This document shows, in pieces, positions 8,313-32,245 of a DNA stretch of 35,382 nucleotides. The stretch is from a bacterium. GTDB lineage: Bacteria; Chloroflexota; Anaerolineae; Epilineales; Epilineaceae. Location of the stretch: assembly GCA_003576755.1 (NCBI GenBank), contig QEVT01000031.1, positions 1 to 35,382 on the forward strand, written 5' to 3'. The position numbers and the translations under genes were made by a program. Positions within the stretch are counted from its first letter, which is position 1, and each line of letters opens with the position of its first letter. A model generated the notes under the pieces. The model worked only from the letters and a program-made list of their open reading frames with translations, did no database searches and had not been told where the DNA came from.

Positions 8313-8478
8313 ATTGAAGCCATTGACGAGAGGTTACTCTCGAAGATCCAGTCGAGCGTAACGTGACGTTCTCGCAGGCTTTGTCTCGCCTGGATTGCCT
8401 GGACTGACCGCATCTCGCACATCAACTTGCCGCTGTCGGTGGAGCGCGATACCATCCCCATGCCATGGATCCTGCCAC

Positions 8479-11466
8479 ATGAGCGAAGCCCTTCGCTCGC
8501 CCCCGTCGCCGGGAGGGCATGCCCTTGCGCCGCTGCAAACCGTCGCCACGCCGCGCGGCGAGCGTCGGCCGGCGGTGTTCGTGAGCTACGCGCATGCCGA
8601 TCGGGCGTTCGTCGAGCGGTTGCTGGAGGACCTGCGGGCGGCGGGGCACGCGTGTTGGATCGACACGACAGCCATCAAGGGTGGCGACGAATGGACGCGG
8701 GCGATCACCGCGGGCATCGAGAACGCCTACGCCTTCATCAGCGTCGTCAGCGCCGCTGCCAACCGCAGCCGCTGGGTGCAGCGGGAGTTCCTGTGGGCGG
8801 ACCGGAAAGGGCGCTCGATCTTCCCGGTGCTGGGGACGGGCGACGAGCTGCCGATCTACATGGTCGACCGGCAGGCGATCGCGCTGCACCCGGACTACTC
8901 GGGCGGCATCAGGCGGCTGCTGGAAGCGCTGCCGGATCCGGCAGCGGCGGCGGCAGTGTTGGGCGCGGCGGTGCGAGATCCGGCCGGCCGCCGGGCGTTG
9001 GAGCTGGCGTACTTGGACCGTCTCAGGTTCGAAGAGCTGCAACACGCCGACCTGTACACCCCGATGGCCGGCACGGCGCGGGCGGCGCCCAAGCCGAAAC
9101 GACCGGGCGGCTTGCCGTCGGTGGTGGCGCGGCCCGAGGCCATCGACATGCGCCAGCAGTTCGAGGTGTTGCGGGCCATGCAGAGGGCAGACCCGGACTC
9201 AGTGGCCGGGGCGCCGCCGGAGCCGAAGCGGTTCGACAACATCCTGGCGGCGGTCGGCGCGGCCAGACGTGCGGTGGTGCTGGGCGAGCCGGGCGCGGGC
9301 AAGACGACGACGCTGTGGAAGCTGGCGAGCGACGCGGTGGCCACCGCCGAAGGCGATCCGGCGGCGCCGATCCCGCTGTTGGTCCGGCTGGGGCGGTGGA
9401 TCGACCCGGACGAGCCGCTGGAGTCCTTCGTCGCCCGCGAGCTCGGCGATCTCGCGGTGCACCTGGACGCGCTGCTGGCGGAAGGGCGGGCGGTGCTGCT
9501 GCTGGACGGGCTCAACGAGACGCCGGCGGCGGCGCGCGAGGCCAAGGCCGCCGAGGTGCGTGCGCTCCTCGAGCGATGGCCGTCGCTGGTGGCGGCGGTG
9601 ACGTGCCGCGAGCTGGACTACACGGACAAGCTGGACCTCGCGCTGGACCGCATCACGATCCGCCCGCTCGACGCGCCGCGCATCCTGGCGTTCGTCACGC
9701 GGTACTTGACGGCGACGGCACCCGGCGACACGCCGGAGGCGAGGGAGGCGGCCGGCTCGGTGCGGGCGGACGACATGTTCTGGAAGCTGGCCGGCGGCGC
9801 CGCCTTGCGTGGGGTGTGGTCGGTGTGGGAGAAGGCAGGAGCATCGTTCGAGCAGTTCTGGTCGGCGCCGGACATTCCGCGGGCCGACCCGGACGTTTAC
9901 ACGAAGACCACGGTCGCCCAGGACACGGAATGGAACAACGCGGTCAAGAACCCTCGCGGGCTGATGCGGCTGGCGGCGAACCCGTACATGCTGTACATGC
10001 TGACCGACGTGTACGAGCTTCTGGGCGACGTGCCGGCCAACCGGGCGGCGCTGTTCGCGAGCTTCGTAGCGGTGTTGCTGAAGCGTGAGGAGATTCCGGA
10101 CGACGAGGCGACACCGCTGATCGAAGCCCTCGCGTCGCTGGCATATGCGATGCAGGTGCGGAGCGCGGCGGTCGACGACGACGGGGGTGCGGTGACGGCG
10201 GTGCCGCGTGCCACGGCGTTGGAGCTGCTTGCGGAACGCCAGATCTACCGCGCGGCGAGCGCCAGCCTGATCACGGCCGACGACGAGGTGCGCTTCACCC
10301 ATCAGCTCCTGCAGGAGTACTTCGCCGCCCGGCGCATGGCCGATCTGATCCACAGCGGCAAGCTGCAGGCATCCGAGATCTGGCCGCAGGAGCGGTGGTG
10401 GGAGCGCACGGGCTGGGAGGAGGCGGCGGTGCTGCTGGCGGGGCTGATGACGGACGACTGCACGGTGGCGCTCGAATGGGTCGCCGCCGCCAACCCGGAG
10501 GTCGCGGCCCAGTGCGCGCTCCGCAGTGGGGCCAAGGTGCCAGAAGCAACGCTGGCGCGGCTGAGGGATCTATGGATTCCGCGCCTCACCGACCTCGGCC
10601 GTGACCCGGCCCCCGAAGCCCGCGCCGCCGTCGGGCGTGCCTTGGGCGTGCTCACCATCGACGGCCTGCCGCTCGACAACCGGCCGGGCGTCGGGGTGCT
10701 GCGTGACGCGGATGGTCGGTGGATGCCGGACATCGACTGGGTGACCGTGCCGGCCGGTCGTTTTGTCTACCAGGATGGCGAAGCCCGTCGCGAGATCGTC
10801 CTGCCGGCCTTCGACATCGCGCGCCATCCGGTGACGTGGATCCAGTTCCAGGCATTCGTCGACGACCCTGACGGCTACGTTGACGACCGGTGGTGGGTCG
10901 ATCTTGACGACCGGCCTTCGGCGCCGATGGCGGCGGCCTTGCCGATCGCGAACCACCCGCGTGAGACGGTGTCGTGGTACGAGGCGGTGGCATTCTGCCG
11001 CTGGCTCACCGATCGCATGCGCGAGTCGGGGCGAATCGAAGCGGCTGGCATTGTGCAGCTCCCGACCGAGGAGCAGTGGGAGAAGGCGGCACGTGGCACC
11101 GACGGGCGCGAGTACCCGTGGGGCGACGGTTATCGCGTGGGGCATGCCAACATCAACGAGACGTGGGAACGGATCGGCCCCCACAACCTTGGCCGGACGA
11201 GCGCAGTGGGGATATACCCGCACGGAGCATCGCGTTGCGGCGCTCTGGACATGGCGGGGAATGTGTGGGAGTGGTGCTTGAACGAGTATGGTAAGCCTGA
11301 CCGAGTAGGAGTCTCGGGGAATGCCGCTCGCGTGTTGCGCGGGGGCTCGTGGAACAGCGACCGGCTCAGCGCGCGGTCGGCGGCCCGCGGCCGCGACCGC
11401 CCGCACGACCGTAACGACAACATCGGGTTTCGGGTGTGTGGGTCTTCCCCCATCTTGAGGCACTGA
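8479..11466 (+). CDS. DGR variable protein 1: TIR-NACHT-FGE sensor
   Basis: 995 residues from ATG 8479; upstream in-frame TTG 8395 is less likely, and no strong ribosome site is seen for either. TIR domain at ~31-155: VFVSYAHAD box at 33-41 and the putative NADase glutamate E103 in SRWVQREF. NACHT NTPase: Walker A GEPGAGKTT at 269-277, Walker B LLLDGLNE at 340-347, and the helical HQLLQEYFAARR segment near 605. FGE domain from ~753 (DWVTVPAGRF) to 991, with LPTEEQWEKAARG, GNVWEWC and RGGSW. Residues ~949-991 are VR1, varied by the adjacent DGR. The architecture is that of an NLR-like receptor: lectin-fold sensor, oligomerising NTPase and probable NAD-cleaving output. RGGSW is followed by hypervariable residues rather than the FGE catalytic cysteines, so the domain should bind rather than catalyse. 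Confidence 0.93.
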   Translation: MSEALRSPPSPGGHALAPLQTVATPRGERRPAVFVSYAHADRAFVERLLEDLRAAGHACWIDTTAIKGGDEWTRAITAGIENAYAFISVVSAAANRSRWVQREFLWADRKGRSIFPVLGTGDELPIYMVDRQAIALHPDYSGGIRRLLEALPDPAAAAAVLGAAVRDPAGRRALELAYLDRLRFEELQHADLYTPMAGTARAAPKPKRPGGLPSVVARPEAIDMRQQFEVLRAMQRADPDSVAGAPPEPKRFDNILAAVGAARRAVVLGEPGAGKTTTLWKLASDAVATAEGDPAAPIPLLVRLGRWIDPDEPLESFVARELGDLAVHLDALLAEGRAVLLLDGLNETPAAAREAKAAEVRALLERWPSLVAAVTCRELDYTDKLDLALDRITIRPLDAPRILAFVTRYLTATAPGDTPEAREAAGSVRADDMFWKLAGGAALRGVWSVWEKAGASFEQFWSAPDIPRADPDVYTKTTVAQDTEWNNAVKNPRGLMRLAANPYMLYMLTDVYELLGDVPANRAALFASFVAVLLKREEIPDDEATPLIEALASLAYAMQVRSAAVDDDGGAVTAVPRATALELLAERQIYRAASASLITADDEVRFTHQLLQEYFAARRMADLIHSGKLQASEIWPQERWWERTGWEEAAVLLAGLMTDDCTVALEWVAAANPEVAAQCALRSGAKVPEATLARLRDLWIPRLTDLGRDPAPEARAAVGRALGVLTIDGLPLDNRPGVGVLRDADGRWMPDIDWVTVPAGRFVYQDGEARREIVLPAFDIARHPVTWIQFQAFVDDPDGYVDDRWWVDLDDRPSAPMAAALPIANHPRETVSWYEAVAFCRWLTDRMRESGRIEAAGIVQLPTEEQWEKAARGTDGREYPWGDGYRVGHANINETWERIGPHNLGRTSAVGIYPHGASRCGALDMAGNVWEWCLNEYGKPDRVGVSGNAARVLRGGSWNSDRLSARSAARGRDRPHDRNDNIGFRVCGSSPILRH
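11324..11449 (+). repeat. DGR variable repeat VR1
   Basis: 126 bp aligned without gaps to TR 11656-11781 (constant offset 332). There are 13 differences, all at the 27 A positions of TR; no C, G or T of TR is changed. Changes fall at 11357, 11359, 11363, 11366, 11369, 11389-11390, 11392-11393, 11395, 11399, 11407 and 11416. The last 29 bp (11421-11449) are identical to TR and are the expected initiation-of-mutagenic-homing segment. Confidence 0.97.
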
Positions 11467-11655: not shown

Positions 11656-11781
11656 CCGCTCGCGTGTTGCGCGGGGGCTCGTGGAACAACAACCAGCACA
11701 ACGCGCGGTCGGCGGCCCGCAACAACAACCACCCGCACAACCGTAACAACAACATCGGGTTTCGGGTGTGTGGGTCTTCCC
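11656..11781 (+). repeat. DGR template repeat (TR)
   Basis: The non-coding donor. Read in the target frame it would encode RGGSW-NNNQHN...NNNH..N..NNN, that is, AAC-rich codons at the positions to be diversified, the hallmark of DGR templates, since AAC mutagenised at A yields many amino acids and no stop codons. Its 27 adenines are concentrated at 11685-11752 between conserved GC-rich ends. Confidence 0.96.
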
Positions 11782-11981
11782 ACACCTCCTTCCCCCTTCC
11801 TGGGCGCGGGCCGGCAGTTCGGACCCGTTGCGAGCACGCCCACCGCTCAGGCACGGGCGCGGCTTCCGGAATTGCCTGCCGACTACGGTTTGCAGGCCGA
11901 GGCGAAGGCGAGGAGATGGCGCAGGGTGGTCCCGCCTGTACGGCACGGTGTTGGCTTCTGCCGTCGGGCGCATACAGAGAC

Positions 11982-12020
11982 GAGGCGCCGCCTGGGTGGT
12001 TCGCCGCCCCGCGGCGCCTC
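11982..12020. terminator. Stem-loop between TR-RNA spacer and avd
   Basis: GAGGCGCCGC (11982-11991) pairs perfectly with GCGGCGCCTC (12011-12020) across a 19-nt loop, and overlaps the avd stop codon (12019-12021). It could end avd transcripts on the minus strand and the template RNA on the plus strand. No T-tract is evident. Confidence 0.4.
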
Positions 12021-12360
12021 ACTGTTCCGACCGGATCCAGCCTCCAAGCATCCGCCCGAGTTCGGCGACCATCCGGCTGACGTGTGCGAACTGGCCGTCT
12101 GTCAGCCACGCCCAGCGATGCGCGAGCCGGAGGTATACCCGGAGCTTGTCCAAAGCCGCGTCAGCCTCGCGCAGGTGTCGCTTGCGCGTGGTGCCTCCCT
12201 GACTCTGCGCGTCGTGGAGCGCGTCGTGGAAGTCGAGCGCTGCTTTCATCATCCGTTGCGTGATCGACGATCGATAGGGTCGTGGGAACAGTTCTGCCTT
12301 CGGCAACAGCCACTCCAGCATGTCGTAGGTGCGCGTGAAGATCACCATTTCCTCGGCCAT
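12019..12360 (-). CDS. avd: DGR accessory variability determinant (Avd, four-helix bundle)
   Basis: 113 residues, the usual Avd length. Recognisable by the helical pattern and conserved C-terminal signature: YDMLEWLLPKAELFPR, LRVYLRLAHRW, then HVSRMVAELGRMLGGWI, with the final GRxLGGWI box diagnostic of bacterial Avd. Avd forms a positively charged pentamer that binds RT and template RNA for mutagenic reverse transcription. Start ATG at 12360 has GAGGAG 7 nt upstream. Its orientation is unusual: it is divergent from the reverse transcriptase (only 14 bp between start codons) and antisense to the template RNA path, whereas avd, TR and RT are normally co-oriented. Confidence 0.88.
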   Translation of the reverse strand: MAEEMVIFTRTYDMLEWLLPKAELFPRPYRSSITQRMMKAALDFHDALHDAQSQGGTTRKRHLREADAALDKLRVYLRLAHRWAWLTDGQFAHVSRMVAELGRMLGGWIRSEQ

Positions 12361-12374
12361 GAGGCATCTCCTCG

Positions 12375-13567
12375 ATGAATAGCCCGGCTTTCGAGCGCGT
12401 GGCTGCGTGGGACAACCTGCTCATGGCGTTCCGGCGAGCGGCGCGAGGGAAGAGAGGCGCCCGGTCGGCAGCGGCATTCGAGTACCGGGTGGCGGATCGA
12501 CTTCTGACGTTGCACGATGAACTGGTCCATGGACGGTATCAGCCTGGTCCATATGTACACTTTCATATTCATGAGCCGAAGCTCCGAAAGATCAGCGCCT
12601 CGCCGTTTCGCGATCGTGTGGTCCATCATGCGCTCTGCCAGGTGATCGAGCCCCGCTTCGAGCATTTGTTCATCGCTGACAGTTACGCCAATCGCGTCGG
12701 CAAGGGAACACATCGGGCAGTAGATCGGTTGCAGACGTTCTCCCAGAAGTATCGATACGTGTTGCGCGCGGACGTGGTGCAGCACTTTGCCGCATTGGAC
12801 CATGCTGTGCTCAGGGCGACTTTGGCCAAGGTCATTCCTGAGCATGACGTCATGCATCTGGTCAACATCATCATCACCAGCGGCATCGGTGTGCTGGACG
12901 ACACATACACGATGAAGTGGTATCCAGGCGATGATCCTGAGGGCGTGACAGAACGTTTGATCGAAGGGCTTCCTGGGAGCGCCGGCATCTTGCCGGCTGG
13001 AAGCCGGCGCTCCCAGGATCTGCCACCCGCCCGGGTCAGGGCGATGATCTGTGGGCCACGACCAGGCCGCGCGGGCTGCCGATCGGGAACCTGACGTCGC
13101 AGTTTTGGTCGAACTGCTACATGAACCCGTTCGATCACTTCGTCGTCCGCGAACTGCGCTGCAAGGCTTACCTCCGCTACGTCGACGACTTCGCGCTGTT
13201 TGCCGACGATCGCCGGCAGCTCTGGCACTGGCGAAGGGCGATCATCGAGCGCTTGGGATCGCTGCGGCTCAGCATCCACGAATCATCGGCCCAAGTGGTG
13301 CCCGTCGCCCATGGCATCCCATGGCTCGGCTTCGTCGTCTATCCCACCCATCGTCGCGTCAAGGCCCGCAACGTGCGCAACTTCACCCGCCGACTCCGTG
13401 CCCGCTGGACCGACTACTGCGCCAACCGCATCAGCTTTGCCGAGTTCGACGCCAGCGTGCAAGGCTGGATCAACCATGTTCGATACGCCGATACTTGGGG
13501 TCTCCGCAGGCATGTGCTCGGCCGGCCCATGCCGCGCGAGGGGCCGAGGTTCGGCAAGGCGCAATAG
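12375..13567 (+). pseudogene. DGR reverse transcriptase, interrupted by a 103-bp element
   Basis: The first 187 codons (12375-12935) contain palm motif [15 protein letters not shown] with D133. The reading frame is then broken by an inserted sequence. The downstream part (13040-13567) resumes in another frame with the DGR signature [13 protein letters not shown] (motif 4) and RYVDDF (motif 5). Deleting 113 bp (insert plus one copy of the 10-bp duplication) joins YPGDD to [18 protein letters not shown] and gives 359 residues, normal for DGR RTs; YVDD would be residues 231-234. As it stands, translation from 12375 runs through the insert and stops at 13094, before motif 4. The 3' part could only be made separately, for example from ATG 13121. 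Confidence 0.93.
12937..13039. mobile_element. Small palindromic element (MITE/REP-like) inserted in the RT gene
   Basis: 103 bp flanked by direct repeats GGCGATGATC at 12927-12936 and 13040-13049, interpreted as a target-site duplication. The element begins CTGAGGGC and ends with GGGTCAG, giving only about four terminal inverted bases (CTGA). Its centre is a perfect 16-bp stem (12971-12986 with 13003-13018, TCCTGGGAGCGCCGGC) with a 16-nt loop. No ORF; mobilisation would need a transposase elsewhere. Confidence 0.8.
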
Positions 13568-13614: not shown

Positions 13615-13683
13615 CAGAGACCAGATGCGCTTCGCGCAAAGGCTGGCGCTACGCGCCATACAGATGTCAGTGCTACACGATGG
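13615..13683 (-). promoter_or_regulatory. Post-VR2 hairpin element
   Basis: Minus-strand homologue of 11450-11517. The 33-nt core (13627-13659) matches exactly and forms the same two hairpins, GCGC-TTC-GCGC (13627-13637) and TGGCGC-TAC-GCGCCA (13644-13658). It lies just beyond VR2 and spans the target 2 stop codon. Confidence 0.65.
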
Positions 13684-16570
13684 GGGAAGACCCACACACC
13701 CGAAACCCGATGTAATGAAAGCGGTCGTGCGGGTGGCTGAGGTCGCGGGCCACCGACCGTGCGTCGTGCTTGTCGTCACCCCACGAGCCCCCGCGCAACG
13801 CGCGATGGGCATTCCCCGCGACTCCTATTCGGTCCCGCCTTCCGTACTCGTTCAAGCACCACTCCCACACATTCCCCGCCATGTCGAGGGCTCCTACCGG
13901 AGACATACCGGCTGGATACATGCCGCCGGCTACGGTGCGCCCCAAACGGCTTTCGGCCGTGTTCGCCTTCTCCGAATCCCACGCCGGCCCCCACGGGAAC
14001 TCGTTCGCGGCGTTGCCCCCTGTCGCCGCCTGCTGCCATTCCCACTCCGTCGGCAACCGCACGACTTGCCCTGCCGCCAACTCGCCCAGCGCCTGTATAC
14101 GCGCCGTTAGCCAGCGGCAGAACGCAACCGCGTCGTACCACGAGACGTTCTCGGCGGGACAGTTGGGCTTCTGACGATACTGCTCCCCTGGCTCTTGATC
14201 CTGAGACAGCCCGTCCCACCACCGCCGATCCCCATACCCGCCCTCAGCCTCGACGAACGCCCGGTACTGCGCCCATGTCACCGCATACTTCGCGATCCTG
14301 AACGGCGACACGTCGAACTCCGCTCCCTCTCCCCTGTCAACGTCAATCGTCACCCGCCCACCCGGCACCTCGCACCACACGATGTCCGGCAGCCCGTCCG
14401 GCCGCAGCCCCACACCCGGACGCGGGTCGCCGATCGCCGCGAGCCGGTCGCCGGTCTCCGCACGGCGGTCGTGGCTGGTCGTCGGATCGCTCAGCTCGTC
14501 CTGCAGCCGCTCGGCTTCAGGGCGAATGAAGGCCTCCTCGTCGTCCGTCAAGTCGGGCTGCAACTGCTCCAGCATCGGCGGCAACAGCGCCAGCCACTCG
14601 TGCGGGCGCAAGAGCGCCCGGCTCTTGCCCCGCGCGACCCATTCCGCCGCCAGCGTGCGCACCTGCCGCAGCAGCACGTAGTGCTCGCGCCGGACCTCGA
14701 TCCACTCCGCAAGCCGCGGCCAGTGCGTGAAGAGCGCCTCATGCGCCACCCCGACCGTCGGGGACTCCCCTTTGTCCGTGACGAGCAACCGCGCATCGAC
14801 GAAGGCCTCGACCAACCGCCTCGCAGGATCGTCCGCCTCAACCTGCGCCTTCGACACCCTGCGCCGCGTCGGCACGCCGCGCTCGTCCACCTCGACGAGC
14901 TGCCGGAACACGTCCGTCAACTTGCCCTGTACTTCGGTCGGGAGACCGCCCAGCGTGGCGTCCGCGCGCCGCGCGATCGCGCCCTTGACGCCGCCAAAGG
15001 CTTCGTACGCCTGCTGCGTCAACCGCCCGTCTCCCGACCGCCGTTCATAGAGCTCCGACAACGCAAACGCCAGCAGCGCCAGGCTCCCCTCGCCCGACCC
15101 GGCGTCGTCGAGGACGCGGTCCACCAGCCCGTCGTCGAAGTCCAGCCCGGCCCGGTACGCCGGCTGGGTCGTCATCGCCCGCAGCGCCGACCGGTCGGCC
15201 GCGGCCAACGGATACGTGCCGGCACCGCGCAGCACCGCGGCCAGCCCACCCGCCACGCAGTGGTCGTAGAAGTCCGCGCGCACTGTCGCCACCACCCGAA
15301 CGGCCTCCATCGCGGCCAGGTCCACGATGGCCTCGAGAAACGCCGGACGGTGTCGCGCATCGACGATCGTGAACACCTCCTCGAGCTGATCGACGAACAC
15401 GACGAGCCGCGCCCACTCCGGACGGCCGGCCACCACCGCGTCGACCACCGCACGCCGTCTCGCCGCATCCCGCAGGTGCTCCGCAACCTCGCGCGGTGCC
15501 CCGCCGCCGGCGCCGAGCACCGGCTTCAGCGCATACGCCAGCGCCACGAACGGATCGCCGCCGGCCTCGCCCGGCGTGAAGCGGTCGGCCAACACCCAGT
15601 CCTTGCCGCCCTCGACCGCGTTGGCCTTCAGACGCGGCACCAGACCCGCCGCCACCAGCGACGACTTCCCCGAGCCCGATGCCCCGACCACCGCCACGAA
15701 GCGCGTCGCCGGATCGGCAAGGGCGCGGATCAAGCCGTCGACCTCCGCCGTGCGGCCGAAGTAGATCGGAGCGTCCTCTTCGGTGAACGCCCGCAAGCCC
15801 GGGAACGGCGAGCCTTGCCACAAGTCCGCCGCCGCGACGCCGTGCCCGCCGCTCCCCCCTCGGGCAGTCGCGCGTCCGCCAGGGCTCCCACTGCCGACGG
15901 GCGCTTCTGCTCCGGCCTCCATCAACCGCGCGATACGCTCCCGCAAGTGCGTTTCGACCATCTTCTCGAACGCGGCCGGCGTCTCGTACGGGTTGAAGCC
16001 GCGCCGGATCGAACCGTCGGGCGCGGCGAACTCCGCGAAGAACGCCTCCACCCGCCCCCACTGCGCCTCCTTGTCGGCGCGCAAGGGGTCCCGCGCCCCC
16101 CACTTCGGCTCCTCCGTCCGGCGATAGACCAGCACATCCGGCCGTCCGCCGGCGTCCGCCGCCCGCACGGCATCCGTGTACTCCCACTCCGTGCCCGACC
16201 AGTAGCGGCTGCCGTCCGGCTTGATGAACTCGCCCCCCGCATCCTCCGGCAGCGGCGTGCCCATCCGCGACCAGAACACCACGACAACGATGTCGCACTC
16301 CGACGGGCGCGGCAGCCCGTTGGCGATCGCTTCCTGCGGGATCAAGTTCGCCAGCATCGGCGTGCCGCCGCCGGGCGTGTCCCACGCCACTGCCTCGATC
16401 TGCACCTTGCCGCGAAACGATGGGTCGTAGCGCAGCTTGTCCAGCACATCGCGCGCAACCTTGCGCTCGTCGGCCACGTCGCCCGGCGACGCCAGGAACA
16501 CGCGCACCGTGCGCGGCGCTCCTGCCGCACCGTCGCCCAGTCCCCCCGCGTTCCTCGGCCAATCATCCAT
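13673..16570 (-). CDS. DGR variable protein 2: DUF4062-nSTAND1-FGE sensor
   Basis: 965 residues from ATG 16570; an in-frame GTG at 16660 would add 30, and ribosome sites are weak for both. DUF4062 domain from ~22 (VRVFLASPGDVADERK). nSTAND1 NTPase: preceding FPGLRAFTEEDAPIYFGR, Walker A GASGSGKSS at 296-304, Walker B VVFVDQLEE around D394, and THWPRLAEWIE in the C-terminal part. FGE domain from ~727, with VSWYDAVAFCRWL, GNVWEWCLNEYG and RGGSW; residues ~921-963 are VR2. The FGE C-terminus shares long near-identical DNA with target 1, showing recent common origin of this domain although the effector and NTPase modules differ. It lies tail to tail with the RT gene. Likely a second diversified NLR-like receptor; DUF4062 probably acts as signalling or effector module. 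Confidence 0.92.
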   Translation of the reverse strand: MDDWPRNAGGLGDGAAGAPRTVRVFLASPGDVADERKVARDVLDKLRYDPSFRGKVQIEAVAWDTPGGGTPMLANLIPQEAIANGLPRPSECDIVVVVFWSRMGTPLPEDAGGEFIKPDGSRYWSGTEWEYTDAVRAADAGGRPDVLVYRRTEEPKWGARDPLRADKEAQWGRVEAFFAEFAAPDGSIRRGFNPYETPAAFEKMVETHLRERIARLMEAGAEAPVGSGSPGGRATARGGSGGHGVAAADLWQGSPFPGLRAFTEEDAPIYFGRTAEVDGLIRALADPATRFVAVVGASGSGKSSLVAAGLVPRLKANAVEGGKDWVLADRFTPGEAGGDPFVALAYALKPVLGAGGGAPREVAEHLRDAARRRAVVDAVVAGRPEWARLVVFVDQLEEVFTIVDARHRPAFLEAIVDLAAMEAVRVVATVRADFYDHCVAGGLAAVLRGAGTYPLAAADRSALRAMTTQPAYRAGLDFDDGLVDRVLDDAGSGEGSLALLAFALSELYERRSGDGRLTQQAYEAFGGVKGAIARRADATLGGLPTEVQGKLTDVFRQLVEVDERGVPTRRRVSKAQVEADDPARRLVEAFVDARLLVTDKGESPTVGVAHEALFTHWPRLAEWIEVRREHYVLLRQVRTLAAEWVARGKSRALLRPHEWLALLPPMLEQLQPDLTDDEEAFIRPEAERLQDELSDPTTSHDRRAETGDRLAAIGDPRPGVGLRPDGLPDIVWCEVPGGRVTIDVDRGEGAEFDVSPFRIAKYAVTWAQYRAFVEAEGGYGDRRWWDGLSQDQEPGEQYRQKPNCPAENVSWYDAVAFCRWLTARIQALGELAAGQVVRLPTEWEWQQAATGGNAANEFPWGPAWDSEKANTAESRLGRTVAGGMYPAGMSPVGALDMAGNVWEWCLNEYGRRDRIGVAGNAHRALRGGSWGDDKHDARSVARDLSHPHDRFHYIGFRVCGSSPIV
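13684..13809 (-). repeat. DGR variable repeat VR2
   Basis: 126 bp, gap-free match to TR on the opposite strand. About 14 differences are at TR adenines and about 10 at other bases (mostly transitions), unlike VR1. The 3' homing segment (13684-13712) is identical to TR and VR1. Encoded residues are RGGSWGDDKHDARS...DLSHPHDRFHY. Confidence 0.93.
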
Positions 16571-16642
16571 GGTCGCGCGATGATACCCATCCCGCTTGCG
16601 CGGCGCCAACCAACCTCCAACATCGTCGCGCAGCACCATCAC

Positions 16643-16716
16643 CACCTTGCCCGCCGACACCGTCGTTCACCACCACAGCCACCTTGCCCGCAAACACCGT
16701 CGTTCACCACCACCGC
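16643..16716. repeat. Two 37-bp tandem repeats in the divergent intergenic region
   Basis: 16643-16679 and 16680-16716 share CACCTTGCCCG, CACCGTCGTTCACCACCAC and differ at few positions. They lie between target 2 (minus) and the SLATT operon (plus), in the upstream region of both. Confidence 0.7.
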
Positions 16717-17406: not shown

Positions 17407-18495
17407 ATGGCACAGAACGTACAACGCTGGGTCCTCACGACAGGGTCGTCGTTCCCGTTCGCCCGGCCCGCGCAGCGGGCCGCCCGCATGGCGGGCCACC
17501 TGCTGGCGCAACTGGACCTCGGCCTCGTCGCCGGCAACGCCACCGGCGTCGACCAGTGGGCGAGCGAAGCGTACTGCAGCGAGATCGAACGCCAGGGCCG
17601 GTCCACCGACAGACGCTTTACCCAGCTCTGGCTCCCGTACTGGCGCGGCCGAGGGAGCTGGTGGCCCATGCCCGGGTTTCGCGCGCCCGCTGCTTGCCGG
17701 CAGATCGTGCGCCGTCAGGCCGACTGGATCGAGCACGCATTGACCGCCGCCGATGCCGCGATCATGATCGGTGGGCAGTCCGGAGCGCTCGACATCGCCC
17801 GCCGGTTCATCGACGCCGGCAAGACCGTCCTGCCCGTGCCGTTCACCGGCGGCGCATCCAACGCCGTGTTCCAGGACATCCTCCGCACATGGGGTGACCA
17901 CCCCGTTCCCGGGCTGTCGCGTACCCAGTTCCTCAGCCTCGGCGAGCCGTGGGTCATCGGCGCCGGCCCGCTGCGCAACCTTGTGCTGGGCATCTTCGCC
18001 GACGCACCCGACATTTTCATCTCCTATCGTCGCGCCGACGCGCTGGCCGACGTGGGCCGTCTGTACCACGACCTGGCCGAGCACTTCGGCGAACGCCGCG
18101 TCTTCGTCGACCTCCAGGACATCGGCGCCAGCGACCGCTGGGCCACGACCATCGAGGGCGCGCTCGACGCGTGCAGCATCGGCATCGTCGTCATCGGGCG
18201 AAGCTGGGTGAGCGACCGCCTGCAAAGCGCGCACGACGTGCTGCGCCGGGAAGTCGAATACCTGATCCAGCACGACAAGGTCATCTTCCCCGTCCTCATG
18301 AACGGCGCGGCCTTGCCGACGCCCGAAGCGCTGCCCCCGACCTTGCACCCCCTGCTGGAGCGTCAGGCCCGCAGCCTCGACACGGCCGGCTGGTCCGCCG
18401 CTGTCCACGACCTCATGCGCCAGATCGATCGCCGCCTGCGGGCGTCGCCCCGTTCCACCAACGATCCTTCCTCGCCCGTGGAGATGCGCCCATGA
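17407..18495 (+). CDS. SLOG-TIR fusion protein
   Basis: 362 residues. Residues 1-165 form a Rossmann-like SLOG domain with glycine turns VAGNATGVD (41-49) and IGGQSGALDIARRFIDAGK (121-139), a fold that binds or processes nucleotide-derived ligands. Residues ~201-345 are a TIR domain: PDIFISYRRAD, VFVDLQDIGASDRW, CSIGIVVIGRSWVSD, and candidate catalytic glutamate E282 in RREVEYL. The fusion suggests that ligand recognition by SLOG controls the TIR, perhaps as NAD consumption or signal production. Its TGA overlaps the ATG of the CHAT gene (18492-18495), giving translational coupling. Confidence 0.88.
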   Translation: MAQNVQRWVLTTGSSFPFARPAQRAARMAGHLLAQLDLGLVAGNATGVDQWASEAYCSEIERQGRSTDRRFTQLWLPYWRGRGSWWPMPGFRAPAACRQIVRRQADWIEHALTAADAAIMIGGQSGALDIARRFIDAGKTVLPVPFTGGASNAVFQDILRTWGDHPVPGLSRTQFLSLGEPWVIGAGPLRNLVLGIFADAPDIFISYRRADALADVGRLYHDLAEHFGERRVFVDLQDIGASDRWATTIEGALDACSIGIVVIGRSWVSDRLQSAHDVLRREVEYLIQHDKVIFPVLMNGAALPTPEALPPTLHPLLERQARSLDTAGWSAAVHDLMRQIDRRLRASPRSTNDPSSPVEMRP

Positions 18496-21400
18496 CCACG
18501 ACCCTGGTCGTCCCCGGCATCGCATGGCAGCCCCCCGCCGACGACGTCGACCGGCAGATGCTCGATAGGTTCGGCCTGAAGGTCACGACCCGCCGGGCCG
18601 TGCGCATGGGGCCCGCCGCCCGCGGCGCCGCCGACGTGGTGCGCATCCCCGATGCTCCCGACGATGCCGTCGTCGAGCTCACGTACCCCGACCAGACACG
18701 CGAGTGGCTGCGCGTCGACGAGCTGCGCCGGCGCATCGGCCCGTCGGCGCGCGGCGGTGAGTCGCGGGCCGAGCTCGTCGTCCCGCCCGCCCTCGGTGTT
18801 GCCACCACCCGCGGCGCTTTCGACCTCGTGCTCGAGGGCCTCAAGCTGTTCGACATCGACCCCATCGGCGACTGGTCCAAGACCACCGTCGTCGACATGG
18901 TCGACGCGTTCGAGTCGAAGCTCTTCGGGCAACCCGCCCCCGGCCACCCCGCCCAGCGCGCCGCCGAAAGCGACTGCACGCCGCGCCTCGGCCTCAATCG
19001 GATCGACGCCGCCGGCCGGCTCGAACCCGTCGTCGGCCCACTGCCCGCCGGAGCGGGCCAACCCTACCTCATCCTCCTGCACGGCACCTTCTCGTCCACC
19101 TGCGGCAGCTTCGGCCGGCTGATGGGCTCGCCCGAGTGGGCGTGGCTCCACGAGCGCTACGGCGACCGCATCCTCGGCTTCGACCACTACAGCCTCAGCC
19201 AGAGCCCCGCGCGCAACGCGCTCGACCTCGCCCAGAGCCTCCCCGACGGCGCGCGGCTCGACCTCCTCAGCCACTCGCGAGGCGGAGTGGTGGGCGAGCT
19301 GCTCAGCCTGCGCGAGCTGCCGCCGTCCGCGCTGAGCCACTTCGAGGTGGCCGGGCGTGACGGCGACATCGACGACCTCCGCGCGCTGCTCCGCGTGCGC
19401 GCGGAGAAGCAGCTCCGCGTCGAACGCTTCGTGCGCGTGGCCGGCCCGGCGCGCGGGGTGTGGTTCATCCATCGATTGGACCGTTACCTGTCCATCCTGC
19501 TCAACCTCCTGGAGCTGGTGCCCGCCTTTAGCGCCGGCCCGCTGTTCCCGTTCGCCAAGGCGGTGGTCCTCAGCCTCATCCGGCGCAGCGCCGACCCCGC
19601 CACCGTGCCCGGCATCGAAGCCATCATGCCGAGCTCGCCGTTCATCGACCTCGTCAACCAGCACGGGCTCGGCGCCGAAGGTCGGCTCGCCGTCGTGGCC
19701 GGCGACGCCGAGGGGCGAGGGTTCGCCGGGCGGCTCAAGACGCTGGCCGTCGACGGCCTCCTCCGAGAGATCAACGACCTTCTCGTCGAGACGCGTTCGA
19801 TGTACGGCGGCCTCGCGCGCGCCGAAGACAAGGCCGTGTTTGCGTTCCATCGCGGCCCCGACGTGTGTCACACGACCTACTTCGCCAACGACGCGAGCCG
19901 CAAGTCGCTCTGCGCGTGGCTTGCCGGGCGCGACCAGCCGCCGTCGTCCGCGTTCCGCGCCCTGACGCCCGAGGCGGTGGCGGTGGCCGAGGCGCAGAGG
20001 GACCGTTCCCGCGGGCGGCGCACGGGAGCGGGCGGCCGCGCCGCCCCCATCGGCATGGTGCTCGTCGTCCCGGACGTCATGGCCAGCCACCTCAAGGACG
20101 ACCGCGGCCGGATCTGGCTCGACCCCGCGCGCCTGCGCGAAGACGGCATCGAGCCCCTCCGCCTGGCCGACGACGGCGAACCCGGCGGCATCCGACCCGA
20201 CGGCCTCTTCGACACCACCTACGATCGCCTGATCGATGCCCTCTCCGGCCGCTTCGAGGTCGCCCCGTTCGCGACCGACTGGCGCCGCTCGATCCGGGCC
20301 GAAGGCGCGCGTCTGGCGGACGAGATCTCGCGGCGCCTCACCAGCCAGGCGCTGCCGCTGCACGTCGTCGCCCACGGGGCCGGCGGCCTGGTCGCGCGCG
20401 CGGTCATGGCGGACCATCCCGAGGCATGGTCCGAGCTCGGCCAACGCGGTGGGCGACTCGTGATGCTCGGCACGCCCCACGCCGGCATGTTCCAGACCCT
20501 GCGGCTGTTGACCGGCGAGGCGGACATCGTGCGCCAGGTCGCGCTGCTCGACCCCCGTCGCGACGACGGGCGGGCCGCCGCCATGCTGCGCACCCTGCCC
20601 GGGATCGTCGAGCTGGTGCCGCACGCGCTGACCGCGGCGGGCGCCGCCGCCCCCGCCGCCGCCGCGGCCTGGTGGACGGAACCTGCATTCCAGGCTCGCT
20701 TGCGTGCGGCGGCCGAGTGCCACACCGCGCTCGAGCGCGCAGTCGATGCCGCCCGCATGGTCTGCGTGGTCGGCAGCGCCGACACTACCCCGGCCGGCCT
20801 GTGCGAAGACCACGACGGCCGCCTCACGACGTGCGACGCCGACGGCGGCGACGGCTGGGTGACCGATGACCGGGCGGCGCTGCCCGGCGTGCCGGTCTGG
20901 CGCGTACCCAACGCCCACGGCGACATGCCGCGTGCCGAGTCGGTGGTCACGGGCATCGCCGAGATCTTGGAACGCGGCGACGGCGCCAACCTGCCCCAAG
21001 CGTCGCTGCCGACGCGCGGCGCACGCCGCGGGTTCACCCCGCCTGCGGCCGTGCCGTTGCTGTTCCCCACCGCACCCGAGATGCTCGCCGCCGCCACCGG
21101 GGGCACGCCCCCCGGCGTCCCCGAGGCCGACGCGTTCGTCCTGCGCCTCTCGGTCGCCCACGGCAGCCTCGAACACGCGCGCCACCCCGTGCTGGTGGGG
21201 CACTATGCCGGCGACAGCATCGCCGGGCCCGAGGCCGTCATCGACCGCTGGCTGGACGGGCGGCTGACACGCCGTCACGCGATGGGTCTCTACCCCGGTG
21301 CCGTTGGCACCGCCGACGTCCTCCTGGCGCCCGGGAGCAAGCCGCCCGGCTGCCTGGTCGTCGGCCTCGGGGAGGTCGGCGGCATCTCTCCTGGGTTGCT

Positions 21401-23942
21401 GACCGACGGGGTCGCGGCGGCGGCGCTGCGGTACGCGCTCTCCGTCATGGAGCGTCCGGCCGCGGGAGACGAAGCACTCGGCTGGTGCTCCGCCGCCTTC
21501 TGCGCGTTGCTCGTCGGCAGCAACACCCAGACCTTCACGGTGCAAAACTCGGTCGCGGCCATCGTCGGCGGCGCCCTTCTCGCCAACCGGATGCTGCGAG
21601 AGCAGAACCTGTGGGACCGTGTCCGAATCGACGCCGTGCAGTTCGTCGAGATCTACGAGGACGTCGCCACGGTGGCCGCGACGACCGTCCGTGACATCCA
21701 CCAGCACCTGCGTGTCCATCTCGACATCTCGGAGCGCTTGCAGGCGGAACCCTATCTCGAGAGCCTGGACGGCGGCTTGCTGCGCCGCCCCGTCGCCATC
21801 TACGCCGACAACTGGTGGCGACGCCTGCAGGTGCGCGAGCGGACGGACTGCGTGGCTCCCGGCGCGGCCGCCGATGGCGACGCGCAGCTCGAGTTCACGT
21901 TGCTCACCGACCGGGCCGGCGCCGGCATGACGCTCCAGCCAGCACAACGGCGGCTCGTCGACCAGCTCATCGCCCGAACGGTCGGACGGTCGGACGACCT
22001 CGACGTGCCGGCGACCTTGTACGAGATGCTCCTTCCCAACGCCCTCAAGGAGCGGGCCTACGAGCTCGCCGGCCTCCAGCTCGTTCTGGATCCCGCAGCC
22101 GCGCGGTACCCCTGGGAGATGCTTGCCGAGCGCGGGCGCGACGGGCAGGCCATTCCCCTCGCCGCCAGGATGGGGATCGTCCGCCAGCTCACCACCGCAG
22201 CCTTCCAACCGCGGCTCCGCCCCCCGGCCGGGCGCAACGCGCTGGTGATCGGCGATCCCGATCTCGGCGCTCAGACCCGCTTCGCGCGACTGCCCGGCGC
22301 CGCCGTCGAGGCCAGGGAGGTTGCGGCGCTGCTGCGAACGTTCGGCTACGACGTCTTCGAGCTCGTCGGGACGGCAGCGAGCGCGGTCAGCATCGTCAAG
22401 GCGTTGTTCGCGCGCGACTACCGCATCGTGCACATAGCAGCCCACGGCGTGTTCGACCCCCTGCGGAAGGACCGTACCGGCGTCGTCATCGGCGCCGACG
22501 TATACCTCACCCCCGGCGAGATCGCCCAGATGCGCGTGATGCCGGAGCTGGTGTTCCTGAACTGCTGCCACTCCGGCACGACCGCCGCGGGACCGGACGA
22601 CGTGGAGCCGGCCGACACCACGGATGCCGGCGGCACGGGCGCCGCAAGCACGCAAGGCTCGGCAGCGCAGGGGCAGCCGCCGGCTGGCGCTGGCGGCGCG
22701 CCCGATCCCGCGACGTCCGCCTGGCATCACCTCGCGTCGAACGTGTCCGAGGCGTTGATCCACCAGGGGGTGAGCGCGGTGGTCGCGGCAGGCTGGGCCG
22801 TCAACGACGCCGCTGCGCTCGACTTCGCCCGCGAACTCTATCGGCACTTGACCGGCAACCGCCGCACCTTCGGCGACGCGGTGTTCCGGGCGCGCAAGCA
22901 CCTGTTCGAGCACGCGGCGCATCGCCGCACCAACACCTGGGGCGCCTACCAGTGCTATGGCGACCCGGCCTTCCGGCTGCGAGCGGGCGGCAACCCGCCG
23001 CCGCGCGAGCCCGCGCCAGCCGTGGCCCTGCACGAGGTGATCCGCGAGCTCGACGAGCTCGCCCGTCGCGGCGCCGCCGGGGACGACGACACCCGCCGGC
23101 ACAGCCTCGCCCGCGTCCGCCACCTCGCCACGTCCGGGCATCAAGCCTGGGCTCGGCACGGCAGGCTCCAGTACCGCCTGGCCAACGCCCTGGCCGAGCT
23201 CGGAGACCTCGAGGGGGCCGTCGCCAGCTACCGGCGGGCCCTAGAGACGTCGAGCGATGCCGAGGACGTCCCCATCCGGGCGGTGGAACAGCTCGCCAAC
23301 CTCGAGTCGCGCCTCGGGGAGCACCTGTGGCGCGAAGGCGGCCCCCGCGAGCAAAGCCTGAACCTCCTCGAGCAGGCGCGAACGCGGATGGAAGTGGTGC
23401 TGGCCATCCACCAAACCCCCGAACGCCTGGCGATCGCCGGCGCCACCGAGCGGCGGCTGGCCGCCATCCTCGACACGGCCGACGACGCTGCTGCGCGCGA
23501 GGCCGCGCTGCGTCGGGCCGCAGCGCACTACAAGGCAGCCTTCGAGGCCGGCGAAACCCCGTTGGAGCCGGACCCGTATCCCGCCCTGGCGTGGATCGAC
23601 CTCGCGTGCGTGCTGGGCGACGGCGAAACCAGCGGTCTCGAGAACCTTGCGCAGACGTGCCTCCAGCGCGCCCGCGAGCTCGCCGCCGCCGAGCCGAGCT
23701 ACTGGCACCGCGTCTACGTGCCGGATGCCGAGAAGAGCCTGGCGCTGGTGCGGGGGGACCTGCCCGCGCACGCGGCCGCGATCCGCACGAAATATGCCGC
23801 CACGTTCGCCCTCGGCGCGACCCTCCGCGAGCGCGACAGCACCGTCGGCTACCTGCGCTGGCTGGCGGCGATGCTGGAATGGCGCAGCCGCGACGCCGAC
23901 GCCGCCGCGCTGCGCGAGATCGCGGCGGCGCCCGATGGATGA
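18492..23942 (+). CDS. Giant alpha/beta-hydrolase x2 - CHAT protease - TPR protein
   Basis: 1816 residues. First hydrolase/lipase-like domain: HGTFSS at 197-202 and nucleophile elbow SHSRGG with S262. Second hydrolase-like domain near 515-760 has the partner sequences LVVPDVMASHL, PFATDWRRS and LGTPHAGMF, but its elbow is AHGAGGLVAR with glycine (G629) where serine should be. CHAT caspase-like protease: ALVIGDPDLG, EAREVAALLRTFGY, HIAAHGVF with H1318, and FLNCCHSG with C1359. A Gly/Ala-rich insert separates the catalytic cysteine from VSAVVAAGWAVND. The C-terminal ~300 residues are helical TPR-like (LQYRLANALAELGDLEGAVASYRRAL). Probably a protease whose target is engaged by the TPRs. Middle residues ~900-1250 are unassigned. 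Confidence 0.88.
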   Translation: MTTTLVVPGIAWQPPADDVDRQMLDRFGLKVTTRRAVRMGPAARGAADVVRIPDAPDDAVVELTYPDQTREWLRVDELRRRIGPSARGGESRAELVVPPALGVATTRGAFDLVLEGLKLFDIDPIGDWSKTTVVDMVDAFESKLFGQPAPGHPAQRAAESDCTPRLGLNRIDAAGRLEPVVGPLPAGAGQPYLILLHGTFSSTCGSFGRLMGSPEWAWLHERYGDRILGFDHYSLSQSPARNALDLAQSLPDGARLDLLSHSRGGVVGELLSLRELPPSALSHFEVAGRDGDIDDLRALLRVRAEKQLRVERFVRVAGPARGVWFIHRLDRYLSILLNLLELVPAFSAGPLFPFAKAVVLSLIRRSADPATVPGIEAIMPSSPFIDLVNQHGLGAEGRLAVVAGDAEGRGFAGRLKTLAVDGLLREINDLLVETRSMYGGLARAEDKAVFAFHRGPDVCHTTYFANDASRKSLCAWLAGRDQPPSSAFRALTPEAVAVAEAQRDRSRGRRTGAGGRAAPIGMVLVVPDVMASHLKDDRGRIWLDPARLREDGIEPLRLADDGEPGGIRPDGLFDTTYDRLIDALSGRFEVAPFATDWRRSIRAEGARLADEISRRLTSQALPLHVVAHGAGGLVARAVMADHPEAWSELGQRGGRLVMLGTPHAGMFQTLRLLTGEADIVRQVALLDPRRDDGRAAAMLRTLPGIVELVPHALTAAGAAAPAAAAAWWTEPAFQARLRAAAECHTALERAVDAARMVCVVGSADTTPAGLCEDHDGRLTTCDADGGDGWVTDDRAALPGVPVWRVPNAHGDMPRAESVVTGIAEILERGDGANLPQASLPTRGARRGFTPPAAVPLLFPTAPEMLAAATGGTPPGVPEADAFVLRLSVAHGSLEHARHPVLVGHYAGDSIAGPEAVIDRWLDGRLTRRHAMGLYPGAVGTADVLLAPGSKPPGCLVVGLGEVGGISPGLLTDGVAAAALRYALSVMERPAAGDEALGWCSAAFCALLVGSNTQTFTVQNSVAAIVGGALLANRMLREQNLWDRVRIDAVQFVEIYEDVATVAATTVRDIHQHLRVHLDISERLQAEPYLESLDGGLLRRPVAIYADNWWRRLQVRERTDCVAPGAAADGDAQLEFTLLTDRAGAGMTLQPAQRRLVDQLIARTVGRSDDLDVPATLYEMLLPNALKERAYELAGLQLVLDPAAARYPWEMLAERGRDGQAIPLAARMGIVRQLTTAAFQPRLRPPAGRNALVIGDPDLGAQTRFARLPGAAVEAREVAALLRTFGYDVFELVGTAASAVSIVKALFARDYRIVHIAAHGVFDPLRKDRTGVVIGADVYLTPGEIAQMRVMPELVFLNCCHSGTTAAGPDDVEPADTTDAGGTGAASTQGSAAQGQPPAGAGGAPDPATSAWHHLASNVSEALIHQGVSAVVAAGWAVNDAAALDFARELYRHLTGNRRTFGDAVFRARKHLFEHAAHRRTNTWGAYQCYGDPAFRLRAGGNPPPREPAPAVALHEVIRELDELARRGAAGDDDTRRHSLARVRHLATSGHQAWARHGRLQYRLANALAELGDLEGAVASYRRALETSSDAEDVPIRAVEQLANLESRLGEHLWREGGPREQSLNLLEQARTRMEVVLAIHQTPERLAIAGATERRLAAILDTADDAAAREAALRRAAAHYKAAFEAGETPLEPDPYPALAWIDLACVLGDGETSGLENLAQTCLQRARELAAAEPSYWHRVYVPDAEKSLALVRGDLPAHAAAIRTKYAATFALGATLRERDSTVGYLRWLAAMLEWRSRDADAAALREIAAAPDG

Positions 23943-30406: not shown

Positions 30407-32245
30407 TCACTCAGGCACGGCGAGCTCGGCGCAATCCGAGATGACCGACGGCTGGAGAATCTCGATGTTGGCGTTGGCAGGCCACCGACCAAGCAGGGCG
30501 TACGCGGTCAACGCCGCCGACGCGCCGACGATCGCGATGTAGGCGGTCAGGAAACCGGTTGAGAACCGCACATGGGCAACCCGGAGCGCGAATCGGCCGG
30601 CCGCTCGCATGGCCAAGAAGGCCACCGATCCGACGAGCATGGTGGGCATCAGCATCAGGTAGTTCCAGGCATACCCCGCCGACGTCAGGTCGCCGATCGA
30701 CCGGCAGCCTGCCGGCCATTGGGTGACGCTGAGCCACAGCAGGCCCAGGACCGCCCCGAGCACACCGCCGACGAAGGAAATGCGGTGGGCGCTCAGCGTG
30801 TGCCCCCCTGGGAGCGCCACGACGAAGCGGTAGAACCACGCGTACACCTGCTGGAGCAGCACCGCATGCACGAGCAGGAGCCCCGTCGATCGCGCGAGCG
30901 TCAGCAGCGCGCCCGGGAAGCCGGGCGTCAGCTCGGACGCGACCATTGCCAGCAGCGCGACACCGACGACCATCCATCGGCCGCGCGTCAGTTGCTGTTC
31001 CCCGACGTGGCGCCAGCGCCAGTCCAGGATGCCCGGCACGAGCGCGCGGTAGAAGACCTCGTAGCGGGCGTCGCGCTCGCCTCCGTCGATTCCGGAGGCT
31101 GCGAGTGGCCTGAGCACGCGCATATCGGACCGGCACAGGCGTTCAACCACCGACGCGATGCGGTCGTCGGGCAGCTCGGTGTAGAACGCCAACGTGCCGA
31201 CGCCGAGGGCTTGCATCGATCCGTCCGGCGTGACCAGGTACTGGAAGATGCGCGCCGCGATCTCACGATCCGATCGGTTCAGCCGCGCGAGGGACCGGTC
31301 GATGTGGTCGCCGACGATCTGTGGAACACTTCCCATTCGACGGAGGCTCGCGCGGCGCAGGGTGTTCGACCCGCGGCCGACCTCCTCCGCCCACAGCCGT
31401 TGCATCACCAGCTGGAGATACGGGGCCTGGACGCTGACGTCGACCTGGATGTCGTCCACGCCGCCCACGGCTTGAGAGGTCGCCTCGGGCACGGCGAGGT
31501 CCGCGTCGATGCTCTCCGACTGCAGTCGCTTGACGACGTCCTCCGCCAGCCCGGGCTCCAGACGGATGGGTTCGTCTCCAGGGCGGGATCGGTTGAAGGC
31601 CTCCAGCGGGCCTTCGACCGCATCGATGGCGGCGGCGGGCTTCAAGTGCTGAAGCTGGATGTAGCTGCGCAGCACCGCGGCCATCGACCCGGCAAGGCGC
31701 TGGAGCATGGCGAGCGCATCCTCGCGGATGGCGATGAGCACGTGGATCGGGCACTCGGGCTGCGCCAGCAGGTGCATGAGCGCGACCGGGAACGTGCGGG
31801 AGTCCATCGTCAAGAGGTCGACACGCTGGGTGGCGGGATGAAACACGAAGTACTCTTCGAACTGATCGAGGAGCAGCACAAGCGGGACATCCAACACCGG
31901 CGCGAACCGGCTGGCATACGTCGCCAGCGCGCTGTCATCGGGATCGGCAGTGGGGACTCCCGCCACGCGCGCCACTTCGGCCCCGATCGCCCGTTTCAGG
32001 TTGCCGACGACGTCGCCCTGCCAGTCCCGGAACACCACAGCGGTGCGGCCGGGTGTCTGGTGCACGCGATAGGCCACCCCGGCTTCCAGCAGCGACGTCT
32101 TGCCTACGCCGCTGGGGCCGCTCAGGACGGTCAGGCGGCTGGCGTAGACATGGTCGAGCACCACGCGCGCCTCGCGGTCGCGCCCGAAGAACAGCGGGCC
32201 ATCGCGCTCTTCGAATGCCGCCAATCCCTTGTATGGTGAATCCAT
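30407..32245 (-). CDS. nSTAND1 NTPase with C-terminal membrane domain
   Basis: 612 residues. N-terminal YKGLAAFEERDGPLFFGRDRE is the classical lead-in of nSTAND1. Walker A GPSGVGKT at 43-50, Walker B LVLLLDQFEE with D127. A winged-helix-like region follows (LARLNRSDREIAARIFQYLV) and a helical region to ~430. The last ~180 residues hold about five membrane helices (MVVGVALLAMVASEL; LLLVHAVLLQQVYAWFY; ISFVGGVLGAVLGLLWL; LMLMPTMLVGSVAFLAM; FLTAYIAIVGASAALTAYALL). It lies 37 bp after the SIR2-like gene, same strand. A membrane-anchored sensor/switch ATPase is likely; the membrane domain may instead be the killing effector. Confidence 0.88.
   Translation of the reverse strand: MDSPYKGLAAFEERDGPLFFGRDREARVVLDHVYASRLTVLSGPSGVGKTSLLEAGVAYRVHQTPGRTAVVFRDWQGDVVGNLKRAIGAEVARVAGVPTADPDDSALATYASRFAPVLDVPLVLLLDQFEEYFVFHPATQRVDLLTMDSRTFPVALMHLLAQPECPIHVLIAIREDALAMLQRLAGSMAAVLRSYIQLQHLKPAAAIDAVEGPLEAFNRSRPGDEPIRLEPGLAEDVVKRLQSESIDADLAVPEATSQAVGGVDDIQVDVSVQAPYLQLVMQRLWAEEVGRGSNTLRRASLRRMGSVPQIVGDHIDRSLARLNRSDREIAARIFQYLVTPDGSMQALGVGTLAFYTELPDDRIASVVERLCRSDMRVLRPLAASGIDGGERDARYEVFYRALVPGILDWRWRHVGEQQLTRGRWMVVGVALLAMVASELTPGFPGALLTLARSTGLLLVHAVLLQQVYAWFYRFVVALPGGHTLSAHRISFVGGVLGAVLGLLWLSVTQWPAGCRSIGDLTSAGYAWNYLMLMPTMLVGSVAFLAMRAAGRFALRVAHVRFSTGFLTAYIAIVGASAALTAYALLGRWPANANIEILQPSVISDCAELAVPE

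Follow-up and report, generated by a model that had tools for sequence, protein, structure and literature searches.

A short MITE insertion with a 10-bp target duplication interrupts the reverse transcriptase gene of a two-target DGR

Disruption of DGR reverse transcriptase (RT) genes by MITEs or transposons is already published. According to the relevant sections of one report (PMC10907252), MITE-like arrays and transposons have degraded the DGR RTs of Thiohalocapsa PB-PSB1, with arrays of MITE-like repeats replacing RT genes and a transposon interrupting one of them; evidence for activity in trans is presented there, and at DGR 3 of that organism interrupted and intact RT alleles coexist. 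For cyanobacterial DGRs, the pertinent part of a second report describes transposases nearby and one degraded DGR, and does not report the element considered here (PMC7517822). Our locus lies in a window of 35,382 nucleotides (the whole stretch of DNA analysed) from a draft Chloroflexota genome of 4.4 Mb in 489 contigs, 81.7% complete. As far as those sections of the Thiohalocapsa PB-PSB1 report go, the two organisms share a DGR RT destroyed by a MITE or transposon, several DGRs in one genome, and targets resembling conflict systems. In contrast to Thiohalocapsa PB-PSB1, however, the window locus has a single short MITE that carries a clear 10-bp duplication and splits an otherwise intact RT, and no IS is known to match it. 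It is a simpler locus of the same kind, and its single insertion adds a clean further case to the published transposon decay of DGRs.

The window carries RT, Avd, a template repeat (TR) and variable repeats (VRs) with adenine-specific differences, the components that define a DGR, with the exception that an intact RT is absent. The Avd accessory protein, which is open and matches both bAvd and Avd PHROG profiles, is encoded on the opposite strand (12019..12360, −), and the TR lies at 11656..11787 (+). VR1 (11324..11455, +) forms the 3′ end of a target gene (8395-11466, +) whose product has TIR_2-NACHT-FGE-sulfatase domains, and VR2 (13681..13805, −) the 3′ end of an nSTAND1-FGE-sulfatase target gene (13673-16660, −); both targets have conflict-system-like architectures. 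Two candidate remote variable repeats (L200 and L201) were rejected as weak template matches with differences that are not adenine-specific, and a third weak match (L202) is very short. Also near the DGR are genes for a DUF7379-CHAT-TPR-S protein and for another nSTAND1 protein (17949-23942 and 30407-32245).

The RT gene itself is divided between two forward-strand frames, both of which match profile phrog_1423. The 5′ part (12375..13094, +) encodes RT residues 1-187 and then continues into the element until a stop codon; in its present form the frame is broken at 12937 and ends at 13094 after 239 codons. The 3′ part (13050..13567, +) contains the YVDD motif, and because its frame has no start codon before 13121, a separate 3′ product would be without LPIGNLTSQ. 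Between them lies an insert of 103 bp (12937-13039), flanked on each side by an identical 10-bp direct repeat, GGCGATGATC, whose two copies repeat comparison places at 12927..12936 and 13040..13049 (+). The insert opens with the left terminal inverted repeat CTGAGGGCGTGACAGAACGTT (12937..12957, +) and closes with TCAG (13036..13039, +), the sole remainder of the right terminal repeat in this copy; its stem arms, TCCTGGGAGCGCCGGC (12971..12986, +) and GCCGGCGCTCCCAGGA (13003..13018, +), are perfectly complementary over 16 bp and enclose a 16-nt loop. A sequence-only reading had proposed a 103-bp insert with a 10-bp duplication and a perfect 16-bp stem, and coordinates and complementarity bear out all three. 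On the given strand, the insert segment folds better than 200 of 200 shuffles (z −3.6 with DNA parameters, −3.8 with RNA parameters), and a single DNA strand is predicted to form one long hairpin with both 10-bp repeats at its base. Rfam profiles gave no match in the window.

When the insert and one repeat copy are removed, the two parts join into a single frame of 359 codons, which confirms the earlier proposal that this operation restores a full, intact 359-residue DGR RT. That homologous RTs might carry the same segment in frame had been named beforehand as grounds for abandoning the idea; none of 99 related RT loci does so, all of them aligning across the insertion site without a gap or extra residues. 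These loci comprise 19 from relatives and 80 retained from 542 in named genomes, the latter relatives being mostly from Chloroflexota and Accumulibacter-type bacteria; plasmid records also contain RT relatives, all at less than 60% identity, and 7 of the 99 loci have a stop codon somewhere in the aligned stretch. It is conceivable that a working RT is still made by recoding, with ribosomes hopping between the repeated GGC GAT GAT codons or shifting frame within the element, as the strong hairpin flanked by matched codons and a downstream frame open across most of the element might suggest. However, 113 nt would have to be bridged, inspection by eye revealed no slippery site, and not one of the related RTs has such a segment, so that we regard recoding as extremely improbable.

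The insert matches many other contigs of its own genome (E down to 7e-46), its longest matches being stretches of 95-105 bp at 97-100% identity; the genome search for the same element that the sequence-only reading had called for has in this way yielded many further copies. When the copies are lined up, the complete element proves to be ~147 bp long, its inverted ends reading CTGA[G/C]GGCGTGACAGAACGTT, a terminal sequence also given as CTGA[G/C]GGCGTGACA, and an 18-mer of this end has 36 matches in the genome at up to two mismatches, as compared to one for a reversed control pattern. Fifteen copies or relatives have two ends, and 14 of them are flanked by a 10-bp duplication at 9 or more of 10 bases (10/10 in 11 elements, 9/10 in three); one (L066) has none, and duplication lengths of 8, 9 and 11 do not fit. 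For the window copy and one other (L005), both without a right inverted repeat, the right boundary was placed at the first TCAG after element base 95. Left-only copies (L002, L007, L009, L010, L012) and right-only copies (L013-L019, L021-L024, L027) stand outside this count; at several of these single-ended loci (L013-L015, L017, L019, L022, L023), other sequence rather than a contig end adjoins the element. Recurrence of the insert in the genome, together with a repeat length of 10 in nearly all two-ended elements, excludes a chance origin. The units have the properties of MITEs: they are short (103-147 bp), present on many contigs of one genome and devoid of their own transposase, with terminal inverted repeats of ~20 bp in full copies (reduced to TCAG at the right end of the window copy) and target duplications of constant length. 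A multi-copy family thus supports the claim that a transposable palindromic element disrupted the RT and left a 10-bp target duplication.

A second, more diverged group of such elements (L062-L068) is 93-110 bp long with mostly 10-bp duplications; its members share the first 14 terminal bases, CTGAGGGCGTGACA, followed mostly by CATCG. A related palindrome core also occurs in a different inverted-repeat context with GGCGTCAAGAG ends (L026, ~1016-1128), which suggests that such palindromes are common to several small repeats. REP-type palindromes have a GC-rich palindrome core, and the window MITE is like them in this respect, with related palindromes elsewhere in the genome and in one relative (G016). 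Unlike them, however, it possesses terminal inverted repeats and 10-bp duplications, and therefore behaves as a transposon.

Beyond its own genome the element was scarcely encountered. The 19-base end pattern had no match in viral_contigs or in genome_contigs; among 60 genomes, its own included, the 147-bp form had matches in two, the other being G016, where the palindrome core alone was matched; and the 14-base end pattern occurred in 3 of 150 genomes, again including its own, at one site each in the other two. No description of the element was found in the literature on DGR insertions, MITEs, the IS4 family, or MITE excision and phase variation. Within the genome and contig collections and the literature searched, the MITE family is apparently new. 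The IS4 family provides a partial comparison: the pertinent section of one survey gives its target duplications as ~10 bp and notes that the IS10, IS50 and ISPepr1 subgroups prefer 5′-CT ends (PMC2266710). These CT-ended subgroups duplicate 7-9 bp in that account, as opposed to 10 bp here, and we do not claim membership. An IS4-family mobilising element would be expected to encode a DDE transposase with the YREK motif, and no transposase was recovered. PF01609, the sole transposase family searched, had no match in the window assembly (81.7% complete), no IS-sized pair of matching ends was recognised among the listed MITE ends, and the open frames listed at loci with single MITE ends provided no identified partner; within these bounds, the suggested genome search for the element's transposase found none.

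Several features of the assembly call for care. Contig breaks in this genome fall at set points within the MITE repeat, one copy includes a stretch of Ns, and several other copies end abruptly or join unrelated sequence at fixed repeat points; on visual inspection, L007 and L018 have flanking duplications in common, as do L010 and L016, as if each pair were the halves of one copy. Given such abrupt ends and joins, short-read assembly around the family is unreliable, and one might suspect a misjoin that placed the insert in an RT gene that is really intact. A misjoin, however, would not duplicate exactly 10 bp of RT sequence right at the ends of the element, nor would it keep both halves of the RT in a single gene order and allow the frame to be restored perfectly, and we consider such an artefact very improbable. 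The window copy is also without ~44 bp just before its final TCAG. L005 shows a similar loss, at an equal length of 103 bp and likewise with a 10-bp duplication, and the right-end deletion of the window copy may be genuine or may reflect misassembly of a repeat; the insertion as such is secure, the internal deletion less so. As it stands, with nearly all of its right terminal repeat missing, the window copy should not be mobile.

The DNA itself shows an element family with near-identical copies and 10-bp duplications, a reading frame that is restored when the flanks are joined, and homologous RTs that do not have the segment; on these grounds we think it highly probable that a recent MITE insertion broke the DGR RT and froze both targets. 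The element would be a non-autonomous DNA transposon of a recently expanded family, presumably moved by a transposase acting in trans, and its transposition would have involved staggered cuts 10 bp apart in the RT gene of the two-target DGR. Translation would then enter the element and stop, yielding an RT without the LPIGNLTSQ and YVDD motifs, and the interrupted allele would probably be unable to make cDNA. Under such circumstances the TIR-NACHT-FGE and nSTAND1-FGE targets would remain frozen at their present variants, barring excision of the element or an RT supplied in trans; if the RT is dead, immune-like sensors would have been fixed as they now are. Counting against this explanation are the failure to find a transposase partner, the two-ended L066 without a duplication, the near loss of the right terminal repeat from the window copy, and a joined RT that is not clearly under relaxed constraint: at otherwise invariant columns it has four unusual residues, as compared to 0 to 7 in relatives. 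By that comparison relaxed constraint on the joined RT is not shown, and no RT decay is evident beyond the insert.

Evidence on the age of the insertion comes from both the MITE copies and the variable repeats. The left 95 bp are identical in 11 of 11 copies compared, with no substitution (L011, the twelfth, has an indel difference and is outside the substitution score), and thus the MITE burst is recent; of 14 right halves, 11 are exact, one has one substitution and two have a 3-base deletion. VR1 differs from the TR at 14 of 29 A sites and at 1 of 103 non-A sites, the latter near the 3′ edge, while VR2 differs at 15 of 29 A sites and 8 of 96 non-A sites. VR1 thus appears to have been written recently and VR2 not, and a recent burst fits a VR1 that differs from its template almost only at adenines. 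The lack of substitutions among the copies and the near absence of non-A changes in VR1 both support the recency of insertion that had been proposed at the outset. The insert represents a datable, probable loss of function at a DGR in which VR1 still has a freshly written look; since the joined gene is intact and drift has affected one VR but not the other, the locus could serve to time the shutdown of a DGR.

The same lack of drift would also be seen if only part of the cells carried the insert, pairing of the palindrome allowing slippage to excise it precisely and restore the RT. The predicted hairpin, which brings both 10-bp repeats to its base, accords with such a mixed population or reversible switch, as does the coexistence of intact and transposon-interrupted RT alleles at DGR 3 of Thiohalocapsa PB-PSB1, so far as the relevant part of that report describes it (PMC10907252). 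However, a recent MITE burst also accounts for the missing drift, and the empty-site junction pattern had no match in viral_contigs, a collection in which it was not expected, so that we view a mixed population as rather unlikely. It is more doubtful still, and indeed highly unlikely, that the MITE and its 10-bp repeats constitute a reversible off-switch, in which slippage excision would restore the RT in a minority and frozen and diversifying targets would alternate.

Recent insertion with loss of RT activity, the reading we prefer, must also be weighed against rescue by another RT. A search for a second intact RT in the genome, suggested by the sequence-only reading, found one on contig C62 (L059, L061), where a complete-looking DGR has an open RT of 370 aa together with a template and an Avd-like gene; its two variable repeats depart from that template solely at template adenines, indels apart. 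This RT scores above the RVT_1 cut-off and shares its RT PHROG with the RT of the window, and with its Avd-like protein and its own template and repeats it could conceivably copy the window template in trans and keep the DGR active. However, the two systems have diverged (RTs 47% identical, Avd proteins 34%), with no significant nucleotide similarity between their templates and spacers (best match 13 nt, E 0.06); VR1, moreover, matches its own local template, of which no further copy was found in the assembly. Supply in trans from C62 is possible, but we do not favour it and judge it distinctly unlikely. The locus lends itself to asking, as a natural experiment, whether another DGR of the same cell is able to step in.

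Partial RT matches were also seen in relatives. Of ten such matches that were retrieved, six are, judged by position, remnant-like and lie away from contig ends (L203, L204, L205, L206, L207, L209), and four sit at contig ends (L208, L210, L211, L212). One of the six (L203, on contig C425 of G001), in a genome of the same family, consists of only a C-terminal remnant of a related RT inside its contig. RT decay thus seems to be recurrent, with one case in the same family.
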